From Chloroflexota bacterium (GTDB taxonomy: Bacteria > Chloroflexota > Dehalococcoidia > Lucifugimonadales > UBA3495), in NCBI GenBank assembly GCA_002710215.1, contig PAJQ01000069.1:1-41025 (forward strand): 41,025 nt of DNA. Reading direction: 5' to 3'. Made by a program: the position numbers and the translations under genes. This document shows positions 10,961 through 41,025 of the stretch, piece after piece. Position 1 is the stretch's first letter. Each line of letters begins with the position of its first letter. The notes under the pieces are model-generated. The model did no database searches. It had not been told where the DNA came from and saw nothing but the letters and a program-made list of their open reading frames with translations.

Positions 10961-11917
10961 ATGCCCCCTACACGGGAAACTGAATTCCACGTTTTAGTGC
11001 CGTCCTATGGGGACGGCGATGGAGAGAGATTGGAGCTTCTGCGCAGCTTAGTATTCGTGCCCGGCAACCGGGCTAACATGTTGGAACGGGCCACCGGTTT
11101 CCCGGCCGACGTGATTATGGTGGACCTGGAGGACTCAGTCCCACCCGATGAAAAGGCCAACGCCAGGGATCTGGCCGCCGAGTGGGTCCCCAAACTTCGC
11201 GCCATGGGCCATCGGGTCATGGTCCGGGTCAACGCTCTGGACACGGGGCTGATCCGGGACGAGCTGGCGGCGGTTGTTGGACCTGACTTGGACGGCGTTA
11301 GCATTGGTAAGGCCGAGACTCCCCAGGACATGCTGGACGCCGATAGATTGATAAGCTCTCTGGAAGCCGCGGTTGGGATGGAACATGGCCACGTAAAGAT
11401 CGTTCCGTGGATCGAGAATGCCCGCGCCATCGTCAACGCCTATCGGATCGCCACGGCGTCGGACCGCATAATCGCGGTAGCTTTTGGCGCCGAAGACTAC
11501 ACCGACGACATGGGTTTAGAGCGCAGCGACACCGGCGAGGAGGTCTACTACCCCAGAGCGGCGGTAGCCGTCGCGGCCAGGGCTGCCCGGGTGGAGGCGT
11601 TGGACTCTCCTTGCGTCCGCTTCCGGGACCCCGACGGTCTTCGGCAGGATGCGGGGCAAGCGCGAAAACTGGGATTCACCGGTAAATTCGCCATTCATCC
11701 CGCCCAGATCGACATAATCAATGACCTCTTCAGCCCTTCAGAGGCAGAGCTGGCCTACGCGCGTAAAGTAGTGGACGCTTGGAATCAGGCCGGGGCTCAA
11801 GGCCGGGGCTCGGCCGATCTAGACGGACGAATGATTGATGTTCCGGTAATCAAGCGGGCGCAAAATCTGCTGATCCTCGCGGAGTCCATCGCCGATAAGC
11901 TGACGGCTAAACGCTGA
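10961..11917 (+). CDS. HpcH/HpaI aldolase / CitE-like lyase
   Basis: The 318-residue TIM-barrel protein resembles the citrate lyase beta-subunit and malyl- or citramalyl-CoA lyase family, Mg-dependent C-C bond-cleaving enzymes. Seen motifs are LRSLVFVPGNRANM, VDLEDSVPPDEKANAR, MVRVNALDTG, VPWIENARAI, AFGAEDYTDDMG and GFTGKFAIHPAQIDIIN. The second metal site usually reads IETA; here it is IENA. No alpha or gamma citrate-lyase subunit is nearby, so a CoA-ester lyase role is more likely than citrate lyase. The ATG at 10961 lacks a well-spaced ribosome binding site. A TTG at 11030, preceded by GGAGAGA and lying directly before the conserved LRSLVFVPG, is a credible alternative start. The stop overlaps the folB start by one base. 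Confidence 0.85.
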   Translation: MPPTRETEFHVLVPSYGDGDGERLELLRSLVFVPGNRANMLERATGFPADVIMVDLEDSVPPDEKANARDLAAEWVPKLRAMGHRVMVRVNALDTGLIRDELAAVVGPDLDGVSIGKAETPQDMLDADRLISSLEAAVGMEHGHVKIVPWIENARAIVNAYRIATASDRIIAVAFGAEDYTDDMGLERSDTGEEVYYPRAAVAVAARAARVEALDSPCVRFRDPDGLRQDAGQARKLGFTGKFAIHPAQIDIINDLFSPSEAELAYARKVVDAWNQAGAQGRGSADLDGRMIDVPVIKRAQNLLILAESIADKLTAKR

Positions 11918-17417: not shown

Positions 17418-17550
17418 CCGCTTTTCTTGGGGCGGGCCTCCAAAACAAGGTTGGCACGTGAGATAAAATCATGCTGATGTGCGCCATCGTTTGGACGTTG
17501 TCTCGTAAATACCAGCATGTATTCATATCTAGCGCCGGTTTGGGAATTTG

Positions 17551-19551
17551 ATGGGTTATATTGAGGCCACCGCCGATTTCGACACGGCCGTCATTGAGGC
17601 TGGTGACCGGTTTGTGTCACAGGTCCAGCCGGTGCTTCACCCCCGAAGCCTGGCGGTTGTCTTATTGAACTCTGGGGGTCATCCAGGCCAGATTGCATTC
17701 ACTTGGGGGCCTCCGCACCGATTCGGAACCTCCCATTGCGCGTCATTGGCCCTTACGCCCAGCCCTGCTGACATCCCGGAACATTCGCTACGAATAAACC
17801 TCCAAGGACGGGAAGGGAGTTTAGGCGCGGTTCTGTTTCGTGGTGATTTCCCCCCTGGGTGCGACTATGAGCAGGCGGAACCGCTTCAAGCCATCACCCG
17901 GCAATTGGCGTTGACGCTGGAGAATATCCAGTTGAAGGAACGCCTGCGTCGTAAGTCGATTGAAGACCAGGCTTTGGAGAACATTGCGTCTTTGGTTGCC
18001 GCCAACCTGCCACCCGGTCCCCTGTACTGGCGTTTCGCGGACGAAGTTAAGCAGTTGACGCGCTACGACAGGATCACTTTCTATCTCGCCGATGAGACGG
18101 GCGGCAACTTGAGCCGGGTCTGTCAGCTTGGTCTAGGGGTCTGCCGCAGCGAACCTGGGCCAAAGCGAGATCTTGGCAGTGCTGCCTGCGAGTCGCTTGT
18201 TTCAAGCGGGACGGGTTTGATAATTCAGGACAAACCTCAACTCGGTGCCTCCCTTTGGCCGGACCTGGACGACGACGCCGATCTGAGATCGGCATTGATA
18301 GCTCCCGTCCGCCACTCAGATGAAGTTGCCGCTGTTGTTGCGTTGGAAAGCCGGTGGCCAAATGCCTATGGGCCGGCCGAGCTGGGCCTTTTGTCCAAGG
18401 CCGCAGAACTCCTGAGGCCTTGGGTAGCTAATCTCCGCTTGGATAGGCAGCTGCAAGGAAATGCTAAAGAGTTGGCCGTCATCGACGAGATGGGGAAGGC
18501 ACTCGGCTCTTTGGACGGACTGGAACAGGTGTTTGGGCATATGGCTAAGGCGGTCAGCGAGTTGATTCCATTTGATCATGCCACCGTGACCTGGATCGAC
18601 CCGGCTGGCAGCGAACTCAGCGCTCTGCATTGGCCCGGCGGCGCTAGCAGGGCAGTGTACTTCAACAACGTCGATTGCCCCAGATTACAAACCTGTCTGG
18701 TGTTTGGTAATCAAGAAATAGGCGCTTTGTCTTTGACCCGTGAGGGCGGATCAAGGTTTACCGCCGAAGACTCTAGAGTTCTGGAGCGGCTCGCCCTTCA
18801 GGTCGCTCCGGTGATCCAGAACGCGCGGTTTGCGATCCAAGGAGCGAGAGCGGGAGATGGGCAGGCCCTACAAGTACAACGATCAAAGAGGGCTGGCGCC
18901 GTCCATGAGCTGCGGGCGCCGCTAACCGCTATTAAAGGCTACAGCAGCGCCTTGCTCCAGTCGGATGTTAGCTGGCCGCCGGAGATTTACCGGGAGTTCC
19001 TGGAAACTATCGATCGGGAAACCGACCGCTTGGACCACGTGGTTGGTGATTTGTTGCTAGCCGTCGATAGTCAGCCTAACCTGCTGAGTCTCAATCTTCA
19101 ACACGCCAGTATCGACGTCCTGTTTGACCTGGCGCAAGCGGATTTGGAGTTAGTCGATTGGTCTAAGGCAGTAACGTTTCAATGCGAGCCTGGCTTACCC
19201 GTGGCGCTGGTGGATCCTACCCACCTGGTTCGGGCGCTGGGACACCTGATTCGCTGTGCAGCCGAGTGCACCCTGCCCGGAGAGGCGATCCAGGTTAAGG
19301 CTTGCCGGAGGCAAGGCGGGCCGGCCATCGTGATAGGGACTGTTAACCCAGTCCGGCCCGGAAAGGCCAGATCCAGGAGGCAACAGGCCCCTTCTTTGTA
19401 CAAGGATGACCGCCCGGCCCGAATCTCTTTGGCTAAGAATCTTCGCGTGGTTGTTTCTAGAAATCTGCTTGATGCCCACGGCGCGAAGCTCCTGATCTTG
19501 CCTAAGAGACGGCCAACAGAGATATTCAGTTTCCCCCTTCCGATCTCCTAA
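17551..19551 (+). CDS. GAF-domain sensor protein with degenerate histidine kinase core
   Basis: The 666-residue soluble protein appears to have two or three GAF-like domains (about 1-130, 140-290 and 300-430), including a helix-linked segment NIQLKERLRRKSIEDQALE. A HisKA dimerisation helix follows with an intact H-box, HELRAPLTAIKGYSS (H452). The ATP-binding domain is eroded. The N-box position reads LGHLIRCAAECT where kinases have an Asn, and no DxGxG glycine loop is visible, only IVIGTVNPVRPG. It may therefore accept phosphate or act as a scaffold but is unlikely to bind ATP normally. No response regulator is adjacent. A TTG precedes the ATG at 17551; I prefer the ATG. Confidence 0.8.
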   Translation: MGYIEATADFDTAVIEAGDRFVSQVQPVLHPRSLAVVLLNSGGHPGQIAFTWGPPHRFGTSHCASLALTPSPADIPEHSLRINLQGREGSLGAVLFRGDFPPGCDYEQAEPLQAITRQLALTLENIQLKERLRRKSIEDQALENIASLVAANLPPGPLYWRFADEVKQLTRYDRITFYLADETGGNLSRVCQLGLGVCRSEPGPKRDLGSAACESLVSSGTGLIIQDKPQLGASLWPDLDDDADLRSALIAPVRHSDEVAAVVALESRWPNAYGPAELGLLSKAAELLRPWVANLRLDRQLQGNAKELAVIDEMGKALGSLDGLEQVFGHMAKAVSELIPFDHATVTWIDPAGSELSALHWPGGASRAVYFNNVDCPRLQTCLVFGNQEIGALSLTREGGSRFTAEDSRVLERLALQVAPVIQNARFAIQGARAGDGQALQVQRSKRAGAVHELRAPLTAIKGYSSALLQSDVSWPPEIYREFLETIDRETDRLDHVVGDLLLAVDSQPNLLSLNLQHASIDVLFDLAQADLELVDWSKAVTFQCEPGLPVALVDPTHLVRALGHLIRCAAECTLPGEAIQVKACRRQGGPAIVIGTVNPVRPGKARSRRQQAPSLYKDDRPARISLAKNLRVVVSRNLLDAHGAKLLILPKRRPTEIFSFPLPIS

Positions 19552-31172: not shown

Positions 31173-31240
31173 GGATGCACTGGATACATTATGGCACTGG
31201 CGGTTATCCGGCGAACCTACATTCGTCAGGCTAGTCGCGG

Positions 31241-33007
31241 TTAATTTGGGACACGAATCGCGTAGACATCCCAACCGGATTCTGGATCGGCGTCATCAAG
31301 CCGCTGGTAGGCCAATTCCTTGCCGTCTGGTGACCAGGATGGCCGGTCTTCGTCAACACTTTCGGTAGCTGTTACTTGTCGCAGATCTGTCCTATCTGTC
31401 TTCACCATGTGTAGGTCTGCCTTTGTCCCGATACCTTTCCTGACCGAGAAGGCGACCCATTTGCCGCTGGGAGACACGTCCGGATAGTGGTTCAGTGCGC
31501 CATTGTTCTCGCCGGTCGTCGTTAGACGGCGGATCGTCTGTCCAGATGAGGTGTCCTTGAGGAAGAGGTCATACCCCTCACCTATCTTGAGGCTGATGAC
31601 GAAAGACCGGCTGTCCGGAGATAGACTGAATCCCCGATTAAGGTCGGGACCGTCGGCAGCCGCCTTATGGGTGCGGACCACTGTGCCGAAGGCGTCCGCA
31701 GGTTGACCTTTGAGGTCCGAGACTAGAGCGACACGGACCGTATTGACATAACTTGCGGGGTTGTGGGAATTGCGAACCATCCACATAACGGTTTTACCGT
31801 CCCTAGAGACCGCCAGCCCGTCGCCGCCCTGTCCGCCGGGAATCACCAGGCTTCGAGTGAACGCCGCGTCGTTGCTGTCGGTATCGACTCGTTGGAAGGG
31901 AGCTTTGCTCGTGTCGAACGTCGTGTAGGAGTGGATGTATATCCGCTCGTTGGACATCAGCAGACCGGATTTGCCCACCCAAGATAGTTCACCGCCGATG
32001 CCGATATCCCGGTTGGGACCGGCGGCCAAAACTCGCTGATTGTTCCCGTCGGAATCCACGGCGCCGATGTCCCAAGGGCGCTGCGTCGCTCCCGGCTTGG
32101 TGGTCATATAGGCGACGGACCCGCCTCTGGGGTCCCAGGATGGGCCTAACTGTTCGCCGGATCCAACGGCCAACGCTCGGGGTTCCCGGATGGCGGTGGG
32201 TGCCGGCGTAAATATCCGAATGGCGAAGATGTCCCAATTGGGGGCCGGGACGGTGTGGAGCTTCCCATGGTAGGCGATTTCCGTGCCATCTGGTGACCAT
32301 GAGGGGCGGCCCTCGCTGGTATCGGGAGTATCCGTTATCTGTCTCAGTCCGATCCCATTGACACCCGTGATGTACAAATCACCCCTGCCGTTGGCGTCCG
32401 GCTGCGCCGCGAATGCTACCCATTGACCATCCGGTGAAGAATCCGGGTGGAGGTTGTGTATGCCGGTGGTCTCGCCGGTCGTTGTGAGACGGCTAATCGT
32501 TTCTCCGGTGCCAATGTCCCTAAGGAAGAGATCGTATCCTTCGCCGCTCTTCAGGCTGATGACGAAAAAATTGGAATCCGGCGACATACTGAATCCCCGG
32601 TTAAAGTCCCGGCCTTCGGTTAGTAGCACATTGCCGAAGCCGTTGGCAGACTGGCCGCTGAGGGCCGCTACCGCAGCGGAGCGTACTGTTAATAGCCAAC
32701 TCGATGGATTATGGGAGGTGCGAATCATCCACATGGCGGTGCTGCCGTCCCTGGAAACTGCTAGCCCGTCGCCGCCCATGCCGCCGGGAATCGCCAGGCT
32801 TCGCGTGAACGCAGCATCGTTTCCGTCGGAGACGGTGCGATTAAAGGGAGCTTTGGCGGTATCAAACGTCATATACGAGTGACCCGAGATCCGCTCGTTG
32901 GTCATCATCAAACCGGTTTTACCCACCCAGGAGAGTTCTCCAGCGAGGCCGATGTCCCGGTTGGGGCCGGTGGCGAGTACTCGCTGGTTGGTCCCATCGG
33001 GATTCAC
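31241..33007 (-). CDS. PD40/TolB-like beta-propeller, downstream part of a frameshifted gene
   Basis: The 588-residue frame contains TolB/PD40-type strands, for example RPSWSPDGTEIAYHGKL, GGSVAYMTTKPGATQRPWD and RPSWSPDGKELAYQ, so it should fold into beta-propeller blades. Two halves of about 316 residues are clearly duplicated: NQRVLATGPNRDIG...GELSWVGKTGL matches NQRVLAAGPNRDIG...GELSWVGKSGL, and each half ends in a WSPDG motif. The frame starts at a GTG that overlaps the preceding frame's stop (GTGA). However, the codons just upstream in this frame read RPYDIAA, which continues the same protein, so a single-base frameshift near 33028 separates it from its lipoprotein front. Whole gene 31241-33597. 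It is likely surface-anchored; its ligand is unknown. Confidence 0.75.
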   Translation of the reverse strand: MNPDGTNQRVLATGPNRDIGLAGELSWVGKTGLMMTNERISGHSYMTFDTAKAPFNRTVSDGNDAAFTRSLAIPGGMGGDGLAVSRDGSTAMWMIRTSHNPSSWLLTVRSAAVAALSGQSANGFGNVLLTEGRDFNRGFSMSPDSNFFVISLKSGEGYDLFLRDIGTGETISRLTTTGETTGIHNLHPDSSPDGQWVAFAAQPDANGRGDLYITGVNGIGLRQITDTPDTSEGRPSWSPDGTEIAYHGKLHTVPAPNWDIFAIRIFTPAPTAIREPRALAVGSGEQLGPSWDPRGGSVAYMTTKPGATQRPWDIGAVDSDGNNQRVLAAGPNRDIGIGGELSWVGKSGLLMSNERIYIHSYTTFDTSKAPFQRVDTDSNDAAFTRSLVIPGGQGGDGLAVSRDGKTVMWMVRNSHNPASYVNTVRVALVSDLKGQPADAFGTVVRTHKAAADGPDLNRGFSLSPDSRSFVISLKIGEGYDLFLKDTSSGQTIRRLTTTGENNGALNHYPDVSPSGKWVAFSVRKGIGTKADLHMVKTDRTDLRQVTATESVDEDRPSWSPDGKELAYQRLDDADPESGWDVYAIRVPN

Positions 33008-33597
33008 GGCGGCGATGTCATAAGGACGGGTGTGGCCCCAGGTTTAGTTGTCATATAGGCAATGGTCCCGCCCCTGGGGTCCCAGGCCGGGTCGAGTTCG
33101 TCGCCCGGGCTGGTGGTGAGTTGGCGGGGCATAGCCGGTGCTTCGGGCTCCGGTTCAACCACCGGAATGGGCGTAGTTTCTACTACGGTGGTATCCGGCG
33201 TGGAGGGATCTGCCGGGGCAACGGTCGGCGAAGGAGTGTCCGAGCCGGTGGGAGCGGGAATTACCGTCGGCTGATCCAACGGCGATACCGTAGTGTCCGG
33301 AACTGTCGTGGATTGCTGTGTCGGCGGCGCAGTAGAGTCTGGGGTTTCTGTTGGTTGTTGCGCCGCCGGCGCATTGGAGTTAGGGACTGCTGTGGGCTGT
33401 TGATTCCGCGGCGGGGAAGCATCTGGATCTGTTTGGGATTGCGGGGTCGCGGCGGGAGAGACAACCGTCTCACTAGCGGGAGAGGTTGTAGCTGGCCGCG
33501 TCGGGATAGGTATCTCCTCTATCGCAGACTCCAACAATGAACATCCGAGGGCCGCCAGTAAAATCGCAGAAATAAAAACAATCTCAAAATATTTCAT
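33004..33597 (-). CDS. lipoprotein signal plus linker, front part of the frameshifted propeller gene
   Basis: The 197-residue frame begins MKYFEIVFISAILLAALGC, a lipoprotein signal with the modified Cys at 19. About 120 residues of Pro/Thr/Ser/Gln-rich linker follow, with imperfect repeats (QQPTAVP, QQPTETP, QQSTTVP). Then comes a propeller strand, DPAWDPRGGTIAYMTTKPGA, matching DPRGGSVAYMTTKPGATQRP of the downstream frame. After GAT the frame reads PVLMTSPP and stops. Inserting one base near 33028-33033 restores RPYDIAAVNPDGTNQR, in line with the second copy. It is therefore one lipoprotein with a one-base loss, either a real mutation, a sequencing error or programmed slippage. Confidence 0.8.
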   Translation of the reverse strand: MKYFEIVFISAILLAALGCSLLESAIEEIPIPTRPATTSPASETVVSPAATPQSQTDPDASPPRNQQPTAVPNSNAPAAQQPTETPDSTAPPTQQSTTVPDTTVSPLDQPTVIPAPTGSDTPSPTVAPADPSTPDTTVVETTPIPVVEPEPEAPAMPRQLTTSPGDELDPAWDPRGGTIAYMTTKPGATPVLMTSPP

Positions 33598-33621
33598 TCA
33601 GTCATCGTAGCACGGTATCGG

Positions 33622-33651
33622 GTATAAGTAAGTGCCAGATGTACTTGACAA
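33622..33651 (-). promoter_or_regulatory. promoter candidate for the propeller lipoprotein
   Basis: On the minus strand TTGTCA (33646-33651) and TTATAC (33622-33627) are 18 bases apart, about 25 bases upstream of the lipoprotein ATG. Both hexamers are imperfect. Confidence 0.4.
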
Positions 33652-33718
33652 GACCGGTCCTGGGGCACTATCCACGACAGCGTAGGCGTGGGGACGGCGC
33701 CTAATCGAGAAATCCCGC

Positions 33719-34237
33719 CTATAAGTTTTCGCCGTGGAAGCGCCCTTGGTACCCCTGGCTCACCGGCTGGGTTAGGTGGAAGAATACCAATTGCATCAGG
33801 CGTGCATCTCGTTGCATTGCGTAGCCTTGATCGTTGTGCACCACCAGTAACGCTTGAGAGCGGCCTCGATAACCCGCGTCCCAAACCGCGGTGTGGATGC
33901 TCACCCCGCTGCGCAACAGGCTGGACCTGGGACGGCCCAAGGCCATCAGGTCCAGCGGGAGGTTAACGATCTCGTTGAAGCTGATCAGGTAGGGTCCGGG
34001 AGATAATCGCAGCCAGCCTTCCCGGTCGAAATCCAGGATTTCGGTGTCTGACAGTGCTCTTTGGTCCGGCCCGGATCCCATGCTGCCTCCGGAGGTCAGG
34101 CGAGAGACTTCTTTCAGGCTCAGGTCGAATCCGTTAGACTGAAGCTGCTCGTCCAGAGATAGGTACGACTCGATGAGGCGCGACGAACCTAGGATCAACT
34201 CCGCGATGGCATTCCGGTCCAGAGCATTAGATGTCAT
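33719..34237 (-). CDS. dUTPase of the archaeal / dCTP-deaminase-like type
   Basis: The 172-residue protein resembles archaeal dUTP diphosphatases, which remove dUTP so that uracil is not built into DNA. The core motif reads GRPRSSLLRSGVSIHTAVWD, continued by AGYRGRSQALLVV, then MQRDARLMQLVFF and the Gly-rich end QGYQGRFHG. Those residues bind phosphates and the uracil. I prefer dUTPase to dCTP deaminase because of the TAVWDAGYRG form, but the two are relatives and this is by eye. The ATG at 34237 is chosen over a TTG at 34249. Confidence 0.78.
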   Translation of the reverse strand: MTSNALDRNAIAELILGSSRLIESYLSLDEQLQSNGFDLSLKEVSRLTSGGSMGSGPDQRALSDTEILDFDREGWLRLSPGPYLISFNEIVNLPLDLMALGRPRSSLLRSGVSIHTAVWDAGYRGRSQALLVVHNDQGYAMQRDARLMQLVFFHLTQPVSQGYQGRFHGENL

Positions 34238-34343
34238 GTCACTTGCCAAAATTCTGGCCCGGACATTACCGCCGGGGTGGCGATGACATTCCGGGCCATT
34301 AGTTTCTTCTCCCTAGAATGCGGAGCTAAGAACCGCGATGGAC

Positions 34344-35969
34344 CTAGTCGTGCATGAAGTCTTGGACGTCTTGGGGCAACGGCACTACAATGGGAATCTC
34401 GGTGATTACGGCCTGGGTGGTTAGCATCATTCCCGCGATGCTGCCGGCGTTCTCCAAGGCGGAACGGGTTACCTTCAATGGGTCGACGATGCCGCGTTCA
34501 ATCAGGTGGCAATACTCACCCTCCTCGGCGTCGAATCCCCAGTCGCCCTCGCCGTTGCGAACATCGTTAAGAATTACCTCGCCGCGGTGGCCGGCGTTGT
34601 CGCATATCAGAATCAGTGGCGCGCTCAGTGCTCGCCTTACCAACCGGGCGCCCAAAGCCTCTTCGCCACTCAGGGTTGACTCCAACTTTTCCACGGCGCT
34701 CTCTGCTCGAATCATGGCCACGCCGCCGCCGGGCACGATGCCTTCCTCGACCGCCGCTTTGGTTGCGGATAGGGCATCTTCGGCCCGGGATTTCCGCTCA
34801 TTGACCTCTGGCTCGGTGGCCCCGCCGATCTTGATGACGGCCACGCCTCCGACCAGAGATGCCAGGCGCTCCTCAAGCTTTTCCCTATCGTAGTCGGAAG
34901 TAGTCTCTTCGATCTGGACTTTGAGTTGTTCGGCCCTGTCCTTGACTGCGTCCTCCGATCCTCGGCCATCGATGATGGTGGAGTCGTCTTTCATGGCAAC
35001 CAGCCGTCGAGCCGATCCGAGGTGCGACATCTCCACGCTGTCCAAACGCAAGCCCACGTCGCTGCTGATCACCGTGCTGCCGGTGAGGATGGCCATATCC
35101 TCCAGCAAGGCCTTTCGGCGTTCGCCAAACCCGGGGGCTTTGATGGCTACGCAGACCAGGGTGCCCCGCATCTTGTTGACCACAAGGGTTGCCAATGCCT
35201 CACCGTCAACATCTTCCGCAATGACTACCAGGGGCCGCCGGCCCTCTGCAATGACCATTTCCATAGTGGCGACGATGTCATTGGGTGAGCTGAGTTTTTG
35301 ATCGGTAATCAAGAACAAAGGATCGTCCAACGCGGATTCCATACGGTCGGTGTCGGTGACGAAGTGGGGCGAAAGATAGCCCCGGTCTATTCGGACGCCC
35401 TCTACGACTTCCAACTCGTCTTCCAGAGCTTTGGACTCTTCGATGGTGATGACGCCTTCCCGGCCAACCTTATCCATGGCGTCGGCCAGTAGTTGGGCGA
35501 TGGCTTCTTCATGGGCGGAAAGAGCCGCTACCCGGGCGACCTGGTCCCGGTTTTCCACGGGGATCGCCATTTTTTTCAACTCTGCCACGACGGTTTCAAC
35601 CGCCTTCTCGATGCCGGATTTCAAGGCCATACCGCTGGTGCCGGCGGCAACGTTGAGGAATCCCTGGCGCACGATCGCCCGGGTCAACACCACTGATGTG
35701 GTGGTACCGTCTCCGACCACGTCATTGGTCTTGGATGCCGCCTCTTTAACCAGTTGCGCGCCCATGTTTTCGTAGGCGTCGGGCAGTTCAATCTCTTTGG
35801 CGATGGTAACGCCGTCACTGCAAACCACCGGCAAGCCGAACATGCGGCTGAAAAGTACGTTTCTGCCGCTGGGCCCCAGGGTTAAACCAACGACACGGCT
35901 CAGTTCGTCTACGCCGCGCATCAAACTGGTTCGCGCTTCTTCACTATAAGTTAGCTGTTTATCCGGCAT
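34344..35969 (-). CDS. groEL: 60 kDa chaperonin (GroEL)
   Basis: The 541-residue protein assembles into ATP-driven folding rings. It has the equatorial ATP residues GLTLGPSGRNVLFSRMFG and VVGDGTTTSVV, and IKIGGATEPEVNERKSRAED with EEGIVPGGGVAMIRAE. Length is normal for the family. The usual GGM-rich C-terminal tail is absent; it ends VQDFMHD. No groES lies beside it, and no CIRCE element (TTAGCACTC-N9-GAGTGCTAA) is seen upstream. It may be a second, divergent GroEL. GAGGAG before the ATG is a good ribosome site, and a TTGACA/CATATT promoter lies 110 bases upstream. Confidence 0.95.
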   Translation of the reverse strand: MPDKQLTYSEEARTSLMRGVDELSRVVGLTLGPSGRNVLFSRMFGLPVVCSDGVTIAKEIELPDAYENMGAQLVKEAASKTNDVVGDGTTTSVVLTRAIVRQGFLNVAAGTSGMALKSGIEKAVETVVAELKKMAIPVENRDQVARVAALSAHEEAIAQLLADAMDKVGREGVITIEESKALEDELEVVEGVRIDRGYLSPHFVTDTDRMESALDDPLFLITDQKLSSPNDIVATMEMVIAEGRRPLVVIAEDVDGEALATLVVNKMRGTLVCVAIKAPGFGERRKALLEDMAILTGSTVISSDVGLRLDSVEMSHLGSARRLVAMKDDSTIIDGRGSEDAVKDRAEQLKVQIEETTSDYDREKLEERLASLVGGVAVIKIGGATEPEVNERKSRAEDALSATKAAVEEGIVPGGGVAMIRAESAVEKLESTLSGEEALGARLVRRALSAPLILICDNAGHRGEVILNDVRNGEGDWGFDAEEGEYCHLIERGIVDPLKVTRSALENAGSIAGMMLTTQAVITEIPIVVPLPQDVQDFMHD

Positions 35970-36078
35970 TCCTGTCTCCTCGGTAAGTTATCATCCAATC
36001 TCTATGGCAGGCTCCCTGGAATCGAGCCGAAAATGATGGCGGAAAACAGGGAGATTAGTTGGAAAATCAGTCGATACC

Positions 36079-36107
36079 AATATGCGATAGTCAGGTTAGA
36101 TTGTCAA
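36079..36107 (-). promoter_or_regulatory. sigma70-like promoter for groEL
   Basis: On the minus strand a perfect TTGACA (36102-36107) is followed after exactly 17 bases by CATATT (36079-36084). It points at groEL and lies in the gap between folK and groEL. Confidence 0.65.
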
Positions 36108-36122
36108 CCGGTTTTCTAGCTT

Positions 36123-36698
36123 TCATGCCTGGGGAGCGGGCTCGTCTTGACGCGGGAGATGCATAGGCGGCCCCCATAACTTGACGCCGCCCTTGCCGTC
36201 CACCTTGTCCGTCAATTCCTGGGCCGTCAGACCGAGCACCGGATGGGTCAGTTCGGGAGCCAATTCCGCCAGCGGCGCCAGCACGAACGCCCTTTGGTGC
36301 AACCGGGGATGGGGTATCTGGAGATTTGCTTGCTCGATGATAATGGCGCCGTAGAACAATATATCCAAGTCGATGACCCTCGGTCCGTACCTAAGGCTCC
36401 ATTCCCGTCCCATCTCCCGTTCCACTCCTTGGGTGATATCTAGGAGCCGGTCTGGTGTTAGGCCGGTCTCCACCTCTAGGACGCAGTTGAGGAAGTCAGG
36501 CTGGTTGGCATATCCCCATGGAGCAGTCTCGTAGACGGACGAAGAGCGCAGAAGTCGAAGATGTCCGTGCGACTTCAATCGGCCATGGTCTAGCGGCTCT
36601 GATGGAGACCTGAACAATAACTCGGCTGCTCTTTCCAGGTTTTTCCGGCGTTCTCCCAGATTGGAGCCCAAACCCAGGTATGCCGTTACAATTTCCAA
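36123..36698 (-). CDS. folK: HPPK: hydroxymethyldihydropterin pyrophosphokinase
   Basis: The protein transfers pyrophosphate from ATP to 6-hydroxymethyl-dihydropterin, one step before FolP. It has AYLGLGSNLGERRKNL, SSVYETAPWGYANQPDFLN, EWSLRYGPRVIDLDILFYG and PHPRLHQRAFVLAPLAELAP. I use a TTG start at 36698 because GGAGG precedes it by eight bases and the family N-terminus begins there, giving 191 residues. The frame also has an ATG at 36743 with no ribosome site. The chosen start overlaps the folP end by 13 bases, so folK is coupled to folP. Confidence 0.93.
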   Translation of the reverse strand: MEIVTAYLGLGSNLGERRKNLERAAELLFRSPSEPLDHGRLKSHGHLRLLRSSSVYETAPWGYANQPDFLNCVLEVETGLTPDRLLDITQGVEREMGREWSLRYGPRVIDLDILFYGAIIIEQANLQIPHPRLHQRAFVLAPLAELAPELTHPVLGLTAQELTDKVDGKGGVKLWGPPMHLPRQDEPAPQA

Positions 36699-37537
36699 CC
36701 CGAAGGCCTCCAGCCCCGGACAACAGCGTCGCTCATCCGGCAAACCCGCACCATCTCTTGAACGTCGTGAACCCGGACGATGTCCACTCCTCCGGCGATG
36801 GCCAGGGCCACCGTTGCGGCGGTTCCTTCTAGTCTGTCCTCAACGGGCAAGTCCAGTACCCAGCCGATGGTCGACTTGCGTGACGTGCCCAGAAGCAAGG
36901 GATAACCCAGGGATGTGAACTCCCGCAATCGGTTCAGGACCTCCAGGTTGTGGTCCGGCGTCTTGCCGAACCCACTGCCCGGGTCCAAGATGATGTTCCC
37001 TTTCGGGACGCCGGCGTCGAGAGCAGCCTGGGCGCTGGCGGACAGGCTGGCGGCAACATCAAATATCAGGTCGTCGTAATGCCGTCCCTTCTGGTTGTGC
37101 ATCAGAATGAGACCCGCGCCGGTCTGGGCGGCGGCTACCGCGATTTCCGGTTCGGATTTCAGGCCCCATTGGTCATTGATGATCGTTGCTCCGGCGGCTA
37201 CGGCATTTCTGGCAACTACCGCCTTGCTGGTGTCCACGCTGACCGGCAGGTTGACGCGGGAAACTATGGCCTCCAAAGCAGGCATTAGCCGCTCCAGTTC
37301 CTCTTCGGCGGTGATGGATTCGTGGCCGGGACGGGTGGACTCGGCTCCCACATCGATAAAGTCGGCGCCTTCGGCCTCGAACCTTATCGCTTGCTCAACG
37401 GCCGCGGAAACGTCCGATCTCAAGCCGTCGCCGGAAAAGGAATCTGGGGTTAGGTTGATGATCCCCATAACATACGTGCGCCGTCCCCACACAAGGGGCT
37501 CGCCATTGGTTACGGTTATATGAATGTAGGCACTCAT
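36686..37537 (-). CDS. folP: dihydropteroate synthase
   Basis: The 283-residue TIM barrel joins p-aminobenzoate to hydroxymethyl-dihydropterin pyrophosphate. Motifs are MGIINLTPDSFSGDG, FIDVGAESTRPG, VSVDTSKAVV, IINDQWGL, ILDPGSGFGKTPDHN, LLLGTSRKSTIG and RLEGTAATVALAI. All substrate-binding positions look present. The ribosome site is weak. It precedes folK in a two-gene folate unit, while folB lies far away on the other strand. Confidence 0.95.
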   Translation of the reverse strand: MSAYIHITVTNGEPLVWGRRTYVMGIINLTPDSFSGDGLRSDVSAAVEQAIRFEAEGADFIDVGAESTRPGHESITAEEELERLMPALEAIVSRVNLPVSVDTSKAVVARNAVAAGATIINDQWGLKSEPEIAVAAAQTGAGLILMHNQKGRHYDDLIFDVAASLSASAQAALDAGVPKGNIILDPGSGFGKTPDHNLEVLNRLREFTSLGYPLLLGTSRKSTIGWVLDLPVEDRLEGTAATVALAIAGGVDIVRVHDVQEMVRVCRMSDAVVRGWRPSGWKL

Positions 37538-37590
37538 GATCTACCCGCCGTTGCCTATCGGCAAACTACGGATACGGCCCTGGGATCTGA

Positions 37591-37617
37591 CGATGCTAGC
37601 AATGCTAGCAATGCTGG
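37591..37617. repeat. triple 9-base tandem repeat
   Basis: Three near-identical copies of GATGCTAGC / AATGCTAGC / AATGCTGGC stand in a row between the RidA gene and folP. They are short and probably a slippage product; no function is evident. Confidence 0.5.
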
Positions 37618-37661
37618 CTTGAACGGCGACTTGGACCGCCCTGGTTCCGGTCAATGGGACT

Positions 37662-38060
37662 CTATTGGGCCACGGTGGCCTCTATCTCCACCAGCAGCTC
37701 AGGAAGGAACAGCGCGGCAATCCCCAGTAACGTGGTGGCAGGCCGGCACCCTGCTTGGCTCAGGCGGGGCATGGTGTCGGATTCGTATGCTTCCAAAAAG
37801 GCGTTCACGTCGGCTACGTAGTAATTTAGACGCACTACGTCCGATAGGCCAAGCCCCGCCTGGCCTAGTACCGTCTCCAGATTGTCCAGTGCCTTGTTGA
37901 TCTGGCCTGCCATATCTCCCACGTGAACCGGATTACATTCGTCATCCACTGAGGTCTGGCCGGAGCATAGCAGCACCCTGTTAACACCGCTTAGGTCACT
38001 GGCCTGCACGAATCCGAATTGATCCTGCCAAGCCCAGGGGTTGATAGCACTTCGTTCCAT
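37662..38060 (-). CDS. RidA/YjgF-family protein
   Basis: The 132-residue protein resembles RidA enamine/imine deaminases: QASDLSGVNRVLLCSGQTSV, DMAGQINKALDNLETVLGQAG, VVRLNYYVADVNAF, CRPATTLLGIAALFLPELLVE and IEATVAQ. RidA's active Arg usually falls in a RSAV-type string that here reads RPATTL, so it may be a related subgroup. The frame is open upstream to 38156, but the ATG at 38060 follows a strong GGAGGA and begins where the family does. Confidence 0.88.
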   Translation of the reverse strand: MERSAINPWAWQDQFGFVQASDLSGVNRVLLCSGQTSVDDECNPVHVGDMAGQINKALDNLETVLGQAGLGLSDVVRLNYYVADVNAFLEAYESDTMPRLSQAGCRPATTLLGIAALFLPELLVEIEATVAQ

Positions 38061-38365
38061 GAAGTCCTCCTTCTCAAAAGGGGTTTGGAAAATAATACTA
38101 CCATAGCTCTCATGGATGAGGCGCGGAGACCCGCCTGGCGGCGCTTGGTAACACATCCGTGGTTGCCAACGTTAAATCTCGGAGCACCAGACGGATGGCG
38201 GCTATGGCCTTAAGCAAAGAGGAGCCGGCCAAACGCGTTGCCGGTCTTCCACACTGAATAAAGGACACTGTATCCCACCACCCGCTTCACCCTCGCCTTG
38301 CACCGCCTATACCCGTCTGCTAGGATGGGGCCAACCTGCCCGGCGGCAATGGTAACGAGGCGCTA
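38061..38365. promoter_or_regulatory. divergent intergenic region
   Basis: This 305-base gap separates the RidA-family gene and the carboxyltransferase gene. For the minus strand a TATTAT (38092-38097) could serve as -10, with no good -35. For the plus strand nothing convincing is seen before the GTG start. No tRNA or small gene is evident. Confidence 0.35.
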
Positions 38366-39931
38366 GTGACAGCGGAAAACCGGTCCATTCAATTGAAATT
38401 GGTCACTCTGGAGCAGATGCGCCAGCAAGCCCAAAAGGGCGGCGGCCAAGAGCGCATAGACCAACAGCATAGCCGGGGCAAACTGACAGCCCGGGAACGG
38501 CTGGCGCTGCTCATGGACGATGATACTTTTGTTGAGATGGACACCTTCGTCACTCACCGGGCGACGGATTTCGGCTTGGCCGACCGCAAGTTTTTGGGAG
38601 ACGCGGTGGTCACCGGATATGGCCGGGTCGACGGCCGGCAAGTCTTCGCCTTCGCCCAAGACTTCACAGTGTTCGGCGGCTCCTTGTCCGAAGCGGTGAG
38701 CCAGAAGATCTGTAAAGTTATGGACCTGGCGGCAAAGACCGGTTGCCCGCTGGTGGGTCTGAACGACTCCGGGGGCGCGCGGATTCAGGAAGGGGTCACC
38801 AGCCTGGCCGCCTACGGGGATATCTTCCTGCGTAACACCCTGTTCTCAGGGGTGATACCCCAAATCTCGGTGATCGTGGGACCGGCAGCGGGAGGGGCGG
38901 TGTACTCTCCGGCCATAACCGATTTTGTGTTTATGGTCAGCGGCACCGGTCAGATGTACATCACGGGACCGGACGTCATCAAGGCGGTAACCGGGGAGAA
39001 TGTTACCCACGAGGAGCTGGGCGGAGCGGCTGCCCATGCCACCCGCAGCGGCGTGGCCCAATTCGTTTATGAAACCGAGGAAGAGTGTCTAGCCGAAGTG
39101 CGGCGGTTGTTAGGTTTCCTCCCCGGCAATAATCTGGACGATTCACCCATTGTAGTCACCGGCGATGGGGCAGGCCGGACTGACCCGGACCTTGCTCCAT
39201 TGGTTCCGTATGACGCCAACCGGCCCTACGACATGCGTGACATTATCTACCGGATCGTCGACGATGAAGAGTTCATGGAAGTCCATCAAAGCTTCGCTCC
39301 CAACGTGGTGGTGGGCTTGGGCCGCCTGGACGGCCGCACGGTGGGCATCATCGGCAATCAGCCCCAACATCTGGCCGGGGTCTTGGATATCGACGCTTCC
39401 AACAAAGCGGCCCGGTTTGTTCGGTTTTGCGATTGCTTCAACATCCCCCTGGTGACATTGGTTGATGTTCCCGGATTCATGCCGGGTGTAGATCAGGAGT
39501 ATGGCGGCATCATCCGCCACGGCGCAAAACTGATCTACGCTTATGCCGAGGCCACAGTCCCCAAGGTTAGCGTCATCATACGAAAAGCCTACGGCGGGGC
39601 TTACATCGTAATGAGTAGCAAGCACCTGAGGTCTGATGTTAACTTCGTTTGGCCCTCGGCGGAGATTGCCGTGATGGGCGCCGAGGGCGCAGTTAACATC
39701 ATTTACCGGGGAGAGATATCCAGCGCCGAAGACCCTGACCAGACCAGGAAGGAGTTGGTGGCCGACTACCAGGAAAAGTTCACCAACCCATACGTCGCCG
39801 CTAACCGGGGTTACATCGACGACATCATCGATCCGTCAGAAACGAGGCCCCGTTTGATTAGAGCCTTGGAGATGCTGCAAAACAAGCGGGATACACTGCC
39901 GGCCAAGAAACACGGCAATATTCCGTTGTAG
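38366..39931 (+). CDS. acyl-CoA carboxylase, carboxyltransferase (beta) subunit
   Basis: The 521-residue protein moves the carboxyl group from biotin to acyl-CoA, as PccB/MmdA do. Crotonase-fold motifs include [79 protein letters not shown] and [16 protein letters not shown]. Length fits propionyl-CoA carboxylase beta. Its biotin carboxylase and biotin-carrier partners are not in the window. The start is a GTG at 38366 with no strong ribosome site, chosen because the conserved N-terminal region follows directly. Substrate (propionyl-, acetyl- or methylmalonyl-CoA) is uncertain. Confidence 0.93.
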
Positions 39932-39980
39932 CAATCAGCTTTCAACTGTCAGCGTTCAGGAGAGCCGATAGCTGATAACC
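39931..39980. repeat. intergenic CTGA-rich repeat, copy 2
   Basis: GCAATCAGCTTTCAACTGTC followed by AGCGTTCAGGAGAGCCGATA lies between the carboxyltransferase and LLM 2 genes. Its reverse complement shares CTCCTGA and TGAAAGCTGATTGC with 20689-20722. Confidence 0.5.
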
Positions 39981-40002
39981 TTCGACTCAAAGGAGTGTAT
40001 CC

Positions 40003-41010
40003 TTGGAATTTGGCGTCTTCTATCAGTTACCTTGCTCGGAGGATCAGTCACCGTCACAGCGGTACTCCGACACTATCGCCCAGTCCCAACTGGCCGACGA
40101 ATTGGGTTTCGACTCCGTGTGGCTGGCCGAACTGCACTTCAATCCGGAATTTTCCATCATGTCGGCGCCACTCTTGGTGGCCTCGGCTATTGCCCAAACA
40201 ACCAAGCGGATAAAGGTGGGCACCGCCGTCAATCTGATGCCTTTACATAATCCGGTCCGATTGGCGGAAGAAGCCGCTACTCTGGATGTGATTTCCGGCG
40301 GACGGGCCATCTTCGGCATCGGCAGGGGCTCCAATCCCCGCCAGTTCGCGGGCTACGGCGTCGACGTAGCCGAGGGACGGGAAAGGTTCCTGGAAGCCTT
40401 GGACTTTGTTCTGAAAGCCTGGAGTTGCGACGAGCTTTCCTACGAAGGCGAGTATTTTCAAGCCCAGGAACTCAGGATCGTGCCCAAACCGCTACAAGAT
40501 CCCCATCCTCCGGTGTACATCGCTTCCAATAGCCCGGACACTTTCGGCATCGTTGGTTCTTTGGGACACAACATCCTGGTAGCGCCGTTAGTTGTTTCCG
40601 TTCAGGGGGCGCTGGACGGGCTGGCGGTGTACCGGGAAGCATTGGCCGAACACGGTCACGACCCGGCCAAGGTAAAGGTCAACGTGAACGTTCCGGTGTA
40701 CGTTACCAAGGACAAGAGCAAGGCCAAAGGCATGCCCCAAGCCAGCTTTGACAACTATCTGGGCCTTATCCGGGCCAACCGGACCCGGTCGCTAAGAGGT
40801 ATCTCCGAACTGACGTACGACCGGGTGTACGATGACTTTGCCGCCATCGGAGACCCGGACCAGGTCGTGGAGAAGCTGAGATCGTTGGGAGAGAGGTATC
40901 AAAACCAAGAGTTCATGTGCTGGTTCAACGCCGGTGGCATGATCCCCCACAAAGAAGTGGAAAAATCCATGCGCCTCTTCTCTGAAAAGGTGATGCCGCA
41001 TTTTGGGTAG
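40003..41010 (+). CDS. LLM-class flavin-dependent oxidoreductase 2
   Basis: The 335-residue luciferase-like protein has QLADELGFDSVWLAELHFNP, IKVGTAVNLMPLHNPVRLAE, VISGGRAIFGIGRGSNPRQF and PHPPVYIASNSPDTFG, matching the bacterial luciferase family that uses FMN (some members F420). A TTG start at 40003 is supported by AGGAG eight bases before it. Its last base is 15 bases from the window end. It carries no adjacent flavin reductase. Role is probably oxidation or desulfonation of an organic compound; substrate unknown. Confidence 0.9.
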   Translation: MEFGVFYQLPCSEDQSPSQRYSDTIAQSQLADELGFDSVWLAELHFNPEFSIMSAPLLVASAIAQTTKRIKVGTAVNLMPLHNPVRLAEEAATLDVISGGRAIFGIGRGSNPRQFAGYGVDVAEGRERFLEALDFVLKAWSCDELSYEGEYFQAQELRIVPKPLQDPHPPVYIASNSPDTFGIVGSLGHNILVAPLVVSVQGALDGLAVYREALAEHGHDPAKVKVNVNVPVYVTKDKSKAKGMPQASFDNYLGLIRANRTRSLRGISELTYDRVYDDFAAIGDPDQVVEKLRSLGERYQNQEFMCWFNAGGMIPHKEVEKSMRLFSEKVMPHFG

Positions 41011-41025
41011 CGGTCAGCGGTCAGC
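41009..41025. repeat. start of a GGTCAGC tandem repeat at the right edge
   Basis: AGCGGTCAGCGGTCAGC directly after LLM 2 contains two copies of GGTCAGC and continues past the window. It resembles the other intergenic CTGA-rich repeats next to LLM genes. Confidence 0.4.

Follow-up and report, generated by a model that had tools for sequence, protein, structure and literature searches.

Introduction

A lipoprotein gene that is divided between two overlapping reading frames raises the question of whether translation joins or couples these frames, whether the division is an error of assembly, or whether the gene is being lost. Such a gene is present in the window, the whole stretch of 41,025 nucleotides analysed here, which is the whole contig C70 of the MAG of an uncultured bacterium of the Dehalococcoidia type (85.81% complete, 4.36% contamination). 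We addressed the question by means of the internal repeat of the gene, a second copy in the same MAG, and the relatives of the gene in other genomes.

Results

Reading frames and the missing base

The lipoprotein gene in the window consists of two ORFs in different frames, both on the minus strand, which overlap in GTGA. The upstream ORF (33004..33597, minus strand, 197 codons) contains a putative lipoprotein signal, a linker and the start of propeller unit 1, followed by eight out-of-frame residues, PVLMTSPP and the stop, directly after the first propeller strand AYMTTKPGAT. The putative signal peptide (33541..33597, minus strand) was recognized by eye, with a lipobox-like LAALGC at residues 14-19 of the upstream ORF, and similar N-terminal signals ending in cysteine were seen by eye in the UBA1141 and G453 relatives. 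The Pro/Thr/Ser-rich linker, delimited from the sequence with approximate bounds, lies at 33133..33540 (minus strand). The downstream ORF (31241..33007, minus strand, 588 codons) is in the -1 frame and carries the remainder of propeller unit 1 and the whole of unit 2. Unit 1 (approximately 32213..33132, minus strand) is interrupted by the frame break at 33028..33031 (minus strand), where the window has at 33030 one base fewer than contig C4 of the same MAG, while unit 2 (approximately 31244..32212, minus strand) is uninterrupted. Upstream of the overlap the -1 frame stays open for 12 further codons, until a TAA at 33046. The coordinates, the frames and the GTGA overlap, which we re-derived from the sequence, agreed with those given in an earlier note on this DNA, as did its statement that the lipoprotein frame stops eight residues after a propeller strand and that the homology continues in the next frame.

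The two units share 61.5% identity over 265 codons. Within the downstream frame, the repeat offset is 316 codons for two landmarks that lie early in the unit and 321 codons for two that lie in its last part. The motif WDPRGG is located at 33084 and at 32137, and the spacing across the junction is 947 nt, compared with the 948 nt expected for 316 codons; owing to this internal spacing, the deficit of one base is visible without any relative. The division of the lipoprotein ORF by a single missing base is a real feature of the sequence. The earlier note had also described each half of the downstream frame as a 316-residue tandem duplicate. The 316-codon offset stands at two landmarks, but the 588-codon frame does not hold two full units, and the description is imprecise because the upstream ORF encodes the start of unit 1.

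The downstream ORF scored above the gathering score of Pfam PF07676 (73.7 bits against a cut-off of 20.9, E 9.5e-21, in four stretches), which places it among the PD40 (WD40-like) beta-propellers, and residues 157-188 of the upstream ORF matched the same family below the cut-off of 20.9 (18.7 bits, E 0.0017). A profile of the unit built from alignment A1, which has three rows and whose UBA1141 row takes in a few residues beyond the frame change of that gene, matched TolB chains in the PDB (E 1e-12 to 3e-7), mostly at profile positions 235-305. The structure prediction of unit 2 (mean pLDDT 40.4) was too poor for use. TolB of the Tol-Pal system carries an N-terminal domain before the propeller. 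This domain was not found among the Pfam matches of both ORFs (E up to 1), nor in unit 2 or the relatives (Pfam, E up to 0.01), and an identification as TolB itself was rejected, since the protein scored 83.8 bits with the NCBIfam model TIGR02800, whose cut-off is 343.15. The intact ancestor was likely a lipid-anchored binding protein of the cell surface.

A second copy with a break of its own

Contig C4 of the same MAG (100,540 bases) begins inside propeller unit 2, so that the gene is situated at its very end. Positions 1-9276 of C4 (L011) overlap window positions 31750-41025 with 99.45% identity, with 49 substitutions and 2 indels in 9277 columns. These stretches are redundant contig ends of one MAG. 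C4 is probably the rightward continuation of the window contig, and the two contigs probably represent strain copies of one locus.

At window position 33030, C4 has one extra base directly beside the GGG and is in frame there, which bears out the expectation of the earlier note that an extra base near the GGG at 33028-33030 restores the frame. C4 has a one-base loss of its own in the linker, placed by the C70/C4 alignment at window 33213..33219 (minus strand), and the window copy does not have this loss. Since C4 is one base short near 33215, its signal peptide, in an ORF of 137 codons, is separated from its propeller frame. Both indels of the overlap fall in the lipoprotein gene, one in each copy, and the other 7428 columns contain no indel. 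The gene takes up 1849 of the 9277 columns, and the chance that both indels would fall there is 0.04 if they were randomly placed. No intact copy was found among the 11 matches in the MAG, four of which are on C70 and C4. An intact paralogue was likewise rejected, as none of the other seven is comparably similar; they are weak propeller matches (E 1.2e-7 to 4.4e-4).

Relatives, distribution and genomic site

The closest relative is that of UBA1141 (Dehalococcoidia bacterium, DCAE01000012.1, L014), the sequence of which is by eye the same as that of contig C138 of G003 (L012). The UBA1141 protein shares the signal, the linker and the PRQLT start with the window protein and has 72% identity to it over 202 residues of unit 1, but it differs in having a single unit, an additional C-terminal part and other genomic neighbours. 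For the C-terminal part after the propeller, the family scans listed no family of its own. This gene is frameshifted as well, at a third place (L014 4762-4815), and its propeller and C-terminal part resume in the next frame. The G453 relative (L020) is more distant. It has a lipoprotein-like signal, a linker and a first propeller of the same family, and it differs from the window protein in that its second part contains NHL repeats. The G453 gene runs through 743 codons in a single open frame, with some bases undetermined.

Both relatives are in frame at the place where the window copy is broken. An arrangement as two separate genes, which the earlier note had allowed for, was not found in them, and a conserved two-gene arrangement was rejected with G453 in one frame and UBA1141 broken elsewhere. 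With these in-frame relatives, the lipobox-like signal recognized by eye, the PD40 matches and the repeat period, the view that the locus encodes a duplicated propeller lipoprotein, divided by a frameshift of one base, was sustained.

The gene is rare. Close homologues were found in 3 of 50 genomes of the family, its own included (E 1e-12), and the same three were the only matches among 250 genomes of the order (E 1e-30); in the set of relatives, 2 of 59 matched (E 1e-20). In the samples taken of the class (393 genomes) and of the phylum (400 genomes), its own genome alone matched (E 1e-25). A pattern search of genome contigs gave 11 matches with one relative among them, and none of 18 pattern matches in viral contigs encodes a relative of the lipoprotein. 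G001, a genome of the same genus (78% complete), had no match to the gene anywhere.

A dut/dcd-like gene precedes the lipoprotein gene in the window and was present in 7/7 relatives searched. In all four relatives whose site was fetched (G001, of the same genus, G006, G018 and G003) it adjoins queG and the lipoprotein gene is absent; the matched parts of the two genes are roughly 77 to 177 bases apart, too short a span to accommodate it. Because the dut/dcd-like gene and queG adjoin in these relatives, the lipoprotein gene is either an accessory insertion at this site or has been repeatedly lost. The segment absent from the four sites, window 31219-33717, contains the whole lipoprotein gene. 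The score of the dut/dcd-like gene itself (window 33719-34249) passed the cut-off of the dUTP nucleotidohydrolase model PRK02253 but not that of dCTP deaminase, while Pfam ranked dCTP deaminase-like first.

Recoding and translational coupling

The overlap of the two frames in GTGA, together with a -1 frame that is open from just after 33046, would allow the frames to be joined or coupled in translation, either by -1 slippage before the TGA, giving a fusion, or by reinitiation at the overlapping GTG, giving a separate propeller, as the earlier note had proposed. Our results made this extremely unlikely. The overlap itself is trivial: any TGA that follows an A, G or T forms a start/stop overlap with the -1 frame, and such overlaps were present at 427 of the 571 TGAs on the minus strand of the window (75%) and at 9 of the 24 stops of the reading frame of the upstream ORF. 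The sole in-frame heptamer of the form X XXY YYZ in the upstream ORF, at 33108, is unusable for slippage because the TAA at 33046 closes the -1 frame after it. RNA folding of the 96 nt around the stop was ordinary (z -0.80), no Shine-Dalgarno-like run was seen by eye before the GTG, and a product reinitiated there would be without the signal peptide. Moreover, the frame change at the 33030 site is absent from C4, from unit 2, from UBA1141 and from G453. Programmed -1 frameshifting was therefore rejected, with no usable heptamer, no unusual structure and no conservation in the relatives. Reinitiation was rejected as well.

Assembly error as the main rival

The missing base could also have arisen as an error in the assembly or consensus of a MAG that mixes strains, the true gene being one open frame. 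A published study reports that many of the presumed pseudogenes in public genomes stem from errors of assembly, and its authors state that MAGs were not assessed (PMC11017572). The additional base of C4 at 33030, the open frame of G453 and the richness in transversions of the differences between the copies within the gene are in favor of this main rival, which we regard as possible but unlikely. To account for the breaks by error would require three errors in a single gene, one in the window, one in the linker of C4 and one in UBA1141, which was assembled separately, while the rest of the C4 overlap is free of indels; in addition, both copies show residue changes at conserved positions. The earlier note had taken an extra base at the junction as a sign of error; the base was found in C4, but C4 is broken elsewhere, so that the frameshift is not simply an error. 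An error mended by C4 was rejected, as a simple one, on the same ground.

As a control for errors, 51,917 aligned columns of the MAG (the window, the rest of L011, and L034) were compared with G001. No clear mid-gene break was seen elsewhere by eye in these about 52 kb. The alignment contained 81 gaps that were not multiples of three, and those in ORFs of the MAG, by eye, were compensated by neighbours, fell at the ends of ORFs or outside probable genes, or were losses of G001. A single-base gap in G001 at window 18964, inside the ORF 17548-19551, is a possible frameshift of G001; other losses on the G001 side were at window 6945 and 6982. Two losses on the MAG side were doubtful. The first, of two bases at window 10979-10980, comes about 18 bases into the ORF that starts at 10961; the second, of one base at L034 15107, is 38 bases inside the edge of an open frame of 563 codons. 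Both could be at or before the true start of the gene. Both the comparison with G001 and the rest of the C4 overlap, free of indels, speak against frequent errors, without proving the loss of the base.

Substitutions and selection

Between C70 and C4, the lipoprotein gene showed 12 nonsynonymous and 2 synonymous changes (614 codons), compared with 10 nonsynonymous and 18 synonymous changes in the seven neighbouring genes pooled (2226 codons), an excess in the gene with Fisher p=0.003 from small numbers and one pair of copies. Nonsynonymous changes occur in the gene at a rate (0.0088) close to that of silent changes in its neighbours (0.0111). The gene thus combines a disrupted frame with a dN near the neutral rate, as expected of a pseudogene, again from small numbers and one pair of copies. 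A ratio of 12:2 could also be obtained by positive selection. Over the longer term the protein has been conserved: the dN/dS against UBA1141 was 0.11 for unit 1 and 0.16 for unit 2, with a dS of about 1.75 that is near saturation, and the dN/dS between units 1 and 2 was 0.27.

Inside the units, 11 codons differ between the copies, and the residue is altered in 10 of them. By comparison with UBA1141, the other unit and G453, nine of these ten changes were polarised, three as derived in the window (32908, 32695 and 31938) and six as derived in C4 (32854, 32785, 32782, 32779, 32548 and 31948), while 32251 was not assignable. Four copy-to-copy substitutions lie within 9 bases, at window 32777-32785, in a glycine-rich stretch kept in the relatives. 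Two glycines of this stretch, invariant in alignment A1, are altered in C4, which is the derived copy there.

The differences between the copies comprised 4 transitions and 10 transversions within the gene, as opposed to 25 transitions and 10 transversions outside it (p=0.01). Errors could cause the excess of transversions inside the gene; lost constraint also shifts the ratio. This excess, the position of the gene at the very end of C4 and the incompleteness and contamination of the MAG weigh against a reading as gene decay.

Discussion

The likeliest reading is that of an ordinary optional gene in decay, because the near-identical second copy is broken at a different place, and we consider it reasonably probable that the gene is an accessory one for a TolB-like (PD40) lipoprotein and that its copies have recently been decaying in parallel. 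The intact gene would have encoded a secreted lipoprotein in which two TolB-like (PD40) propeller units in tandem follow a Pro/Thr-rich linker; this protein presumably bound something at the cell surface. In the window copy, one base would have been lost within unit 1, and translation from the lipoprotein start would yield the anchor, the linker and a fragment of the first blade. As the rest of the frame is without an export signal, this copy is not expected to give a working lipoprotein. The low dN/dS against UBA1141 suggests that selection kept the gene over the long term; in the sampled population it may now be relaxed, with the copies breaking independently. On this reading, the base losses and substitutions would be real mutations rather than assembly errors, and the loss of the gene may carry no large cost.

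The three different breaks in three copies, and the 12 nonsynonymous against 2 synonymous changes, would also suit a diversifying or switching surface protein whose broken and intact copies are kept as a mixture in the population, recombination being able to restore an intact copy. This we find very doubtful: no intact copy was seen in the MAG, and by eye the breaks are without a long simple-sequence repeat, having just runs of 3 to 4 equal bases. Neutral decay is simpler than a maintained mixture because the nonsynonymous rate of the gene is so close to the silent rate of its neighbours. It is likewise improbable that the locus represents a patchy surface-propeller gene of uncultured Chloroflexota that is repeatedly broken at differing places under fluctuating selection, with intact and broken forms coexisting; recombination between differently broken copies could then restore the gene.

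Returning to decay as the preferred reading, an apparent recoding site became a case of ordinary gene decay (or assembly noise) once the second copy and the relatives were read, and a redundant contig end proved a useful internal control for frameshifts in MAGs. If the different breaks are real, the locus would be a small, clean case of the parallel loss of an accessory surface protein in one population.

Compared with TolB-like proteins (PF07676, TIGR02800; chains such as 4r40 and 1c5k), the window protein has PD40 repeats in both units as they do, and it differs from TolB in its two units and in its putative lipoprotein signal and Pro/Thr linker. With ordinary frameshifted bacterial pseudogenes, real or spurious, as treated in PMC11017572, it shares the single-base loss and the sign of relaxed selection. 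In contrast to these, two near-identical copies are present here in one assembly, and they are broken at different sites.
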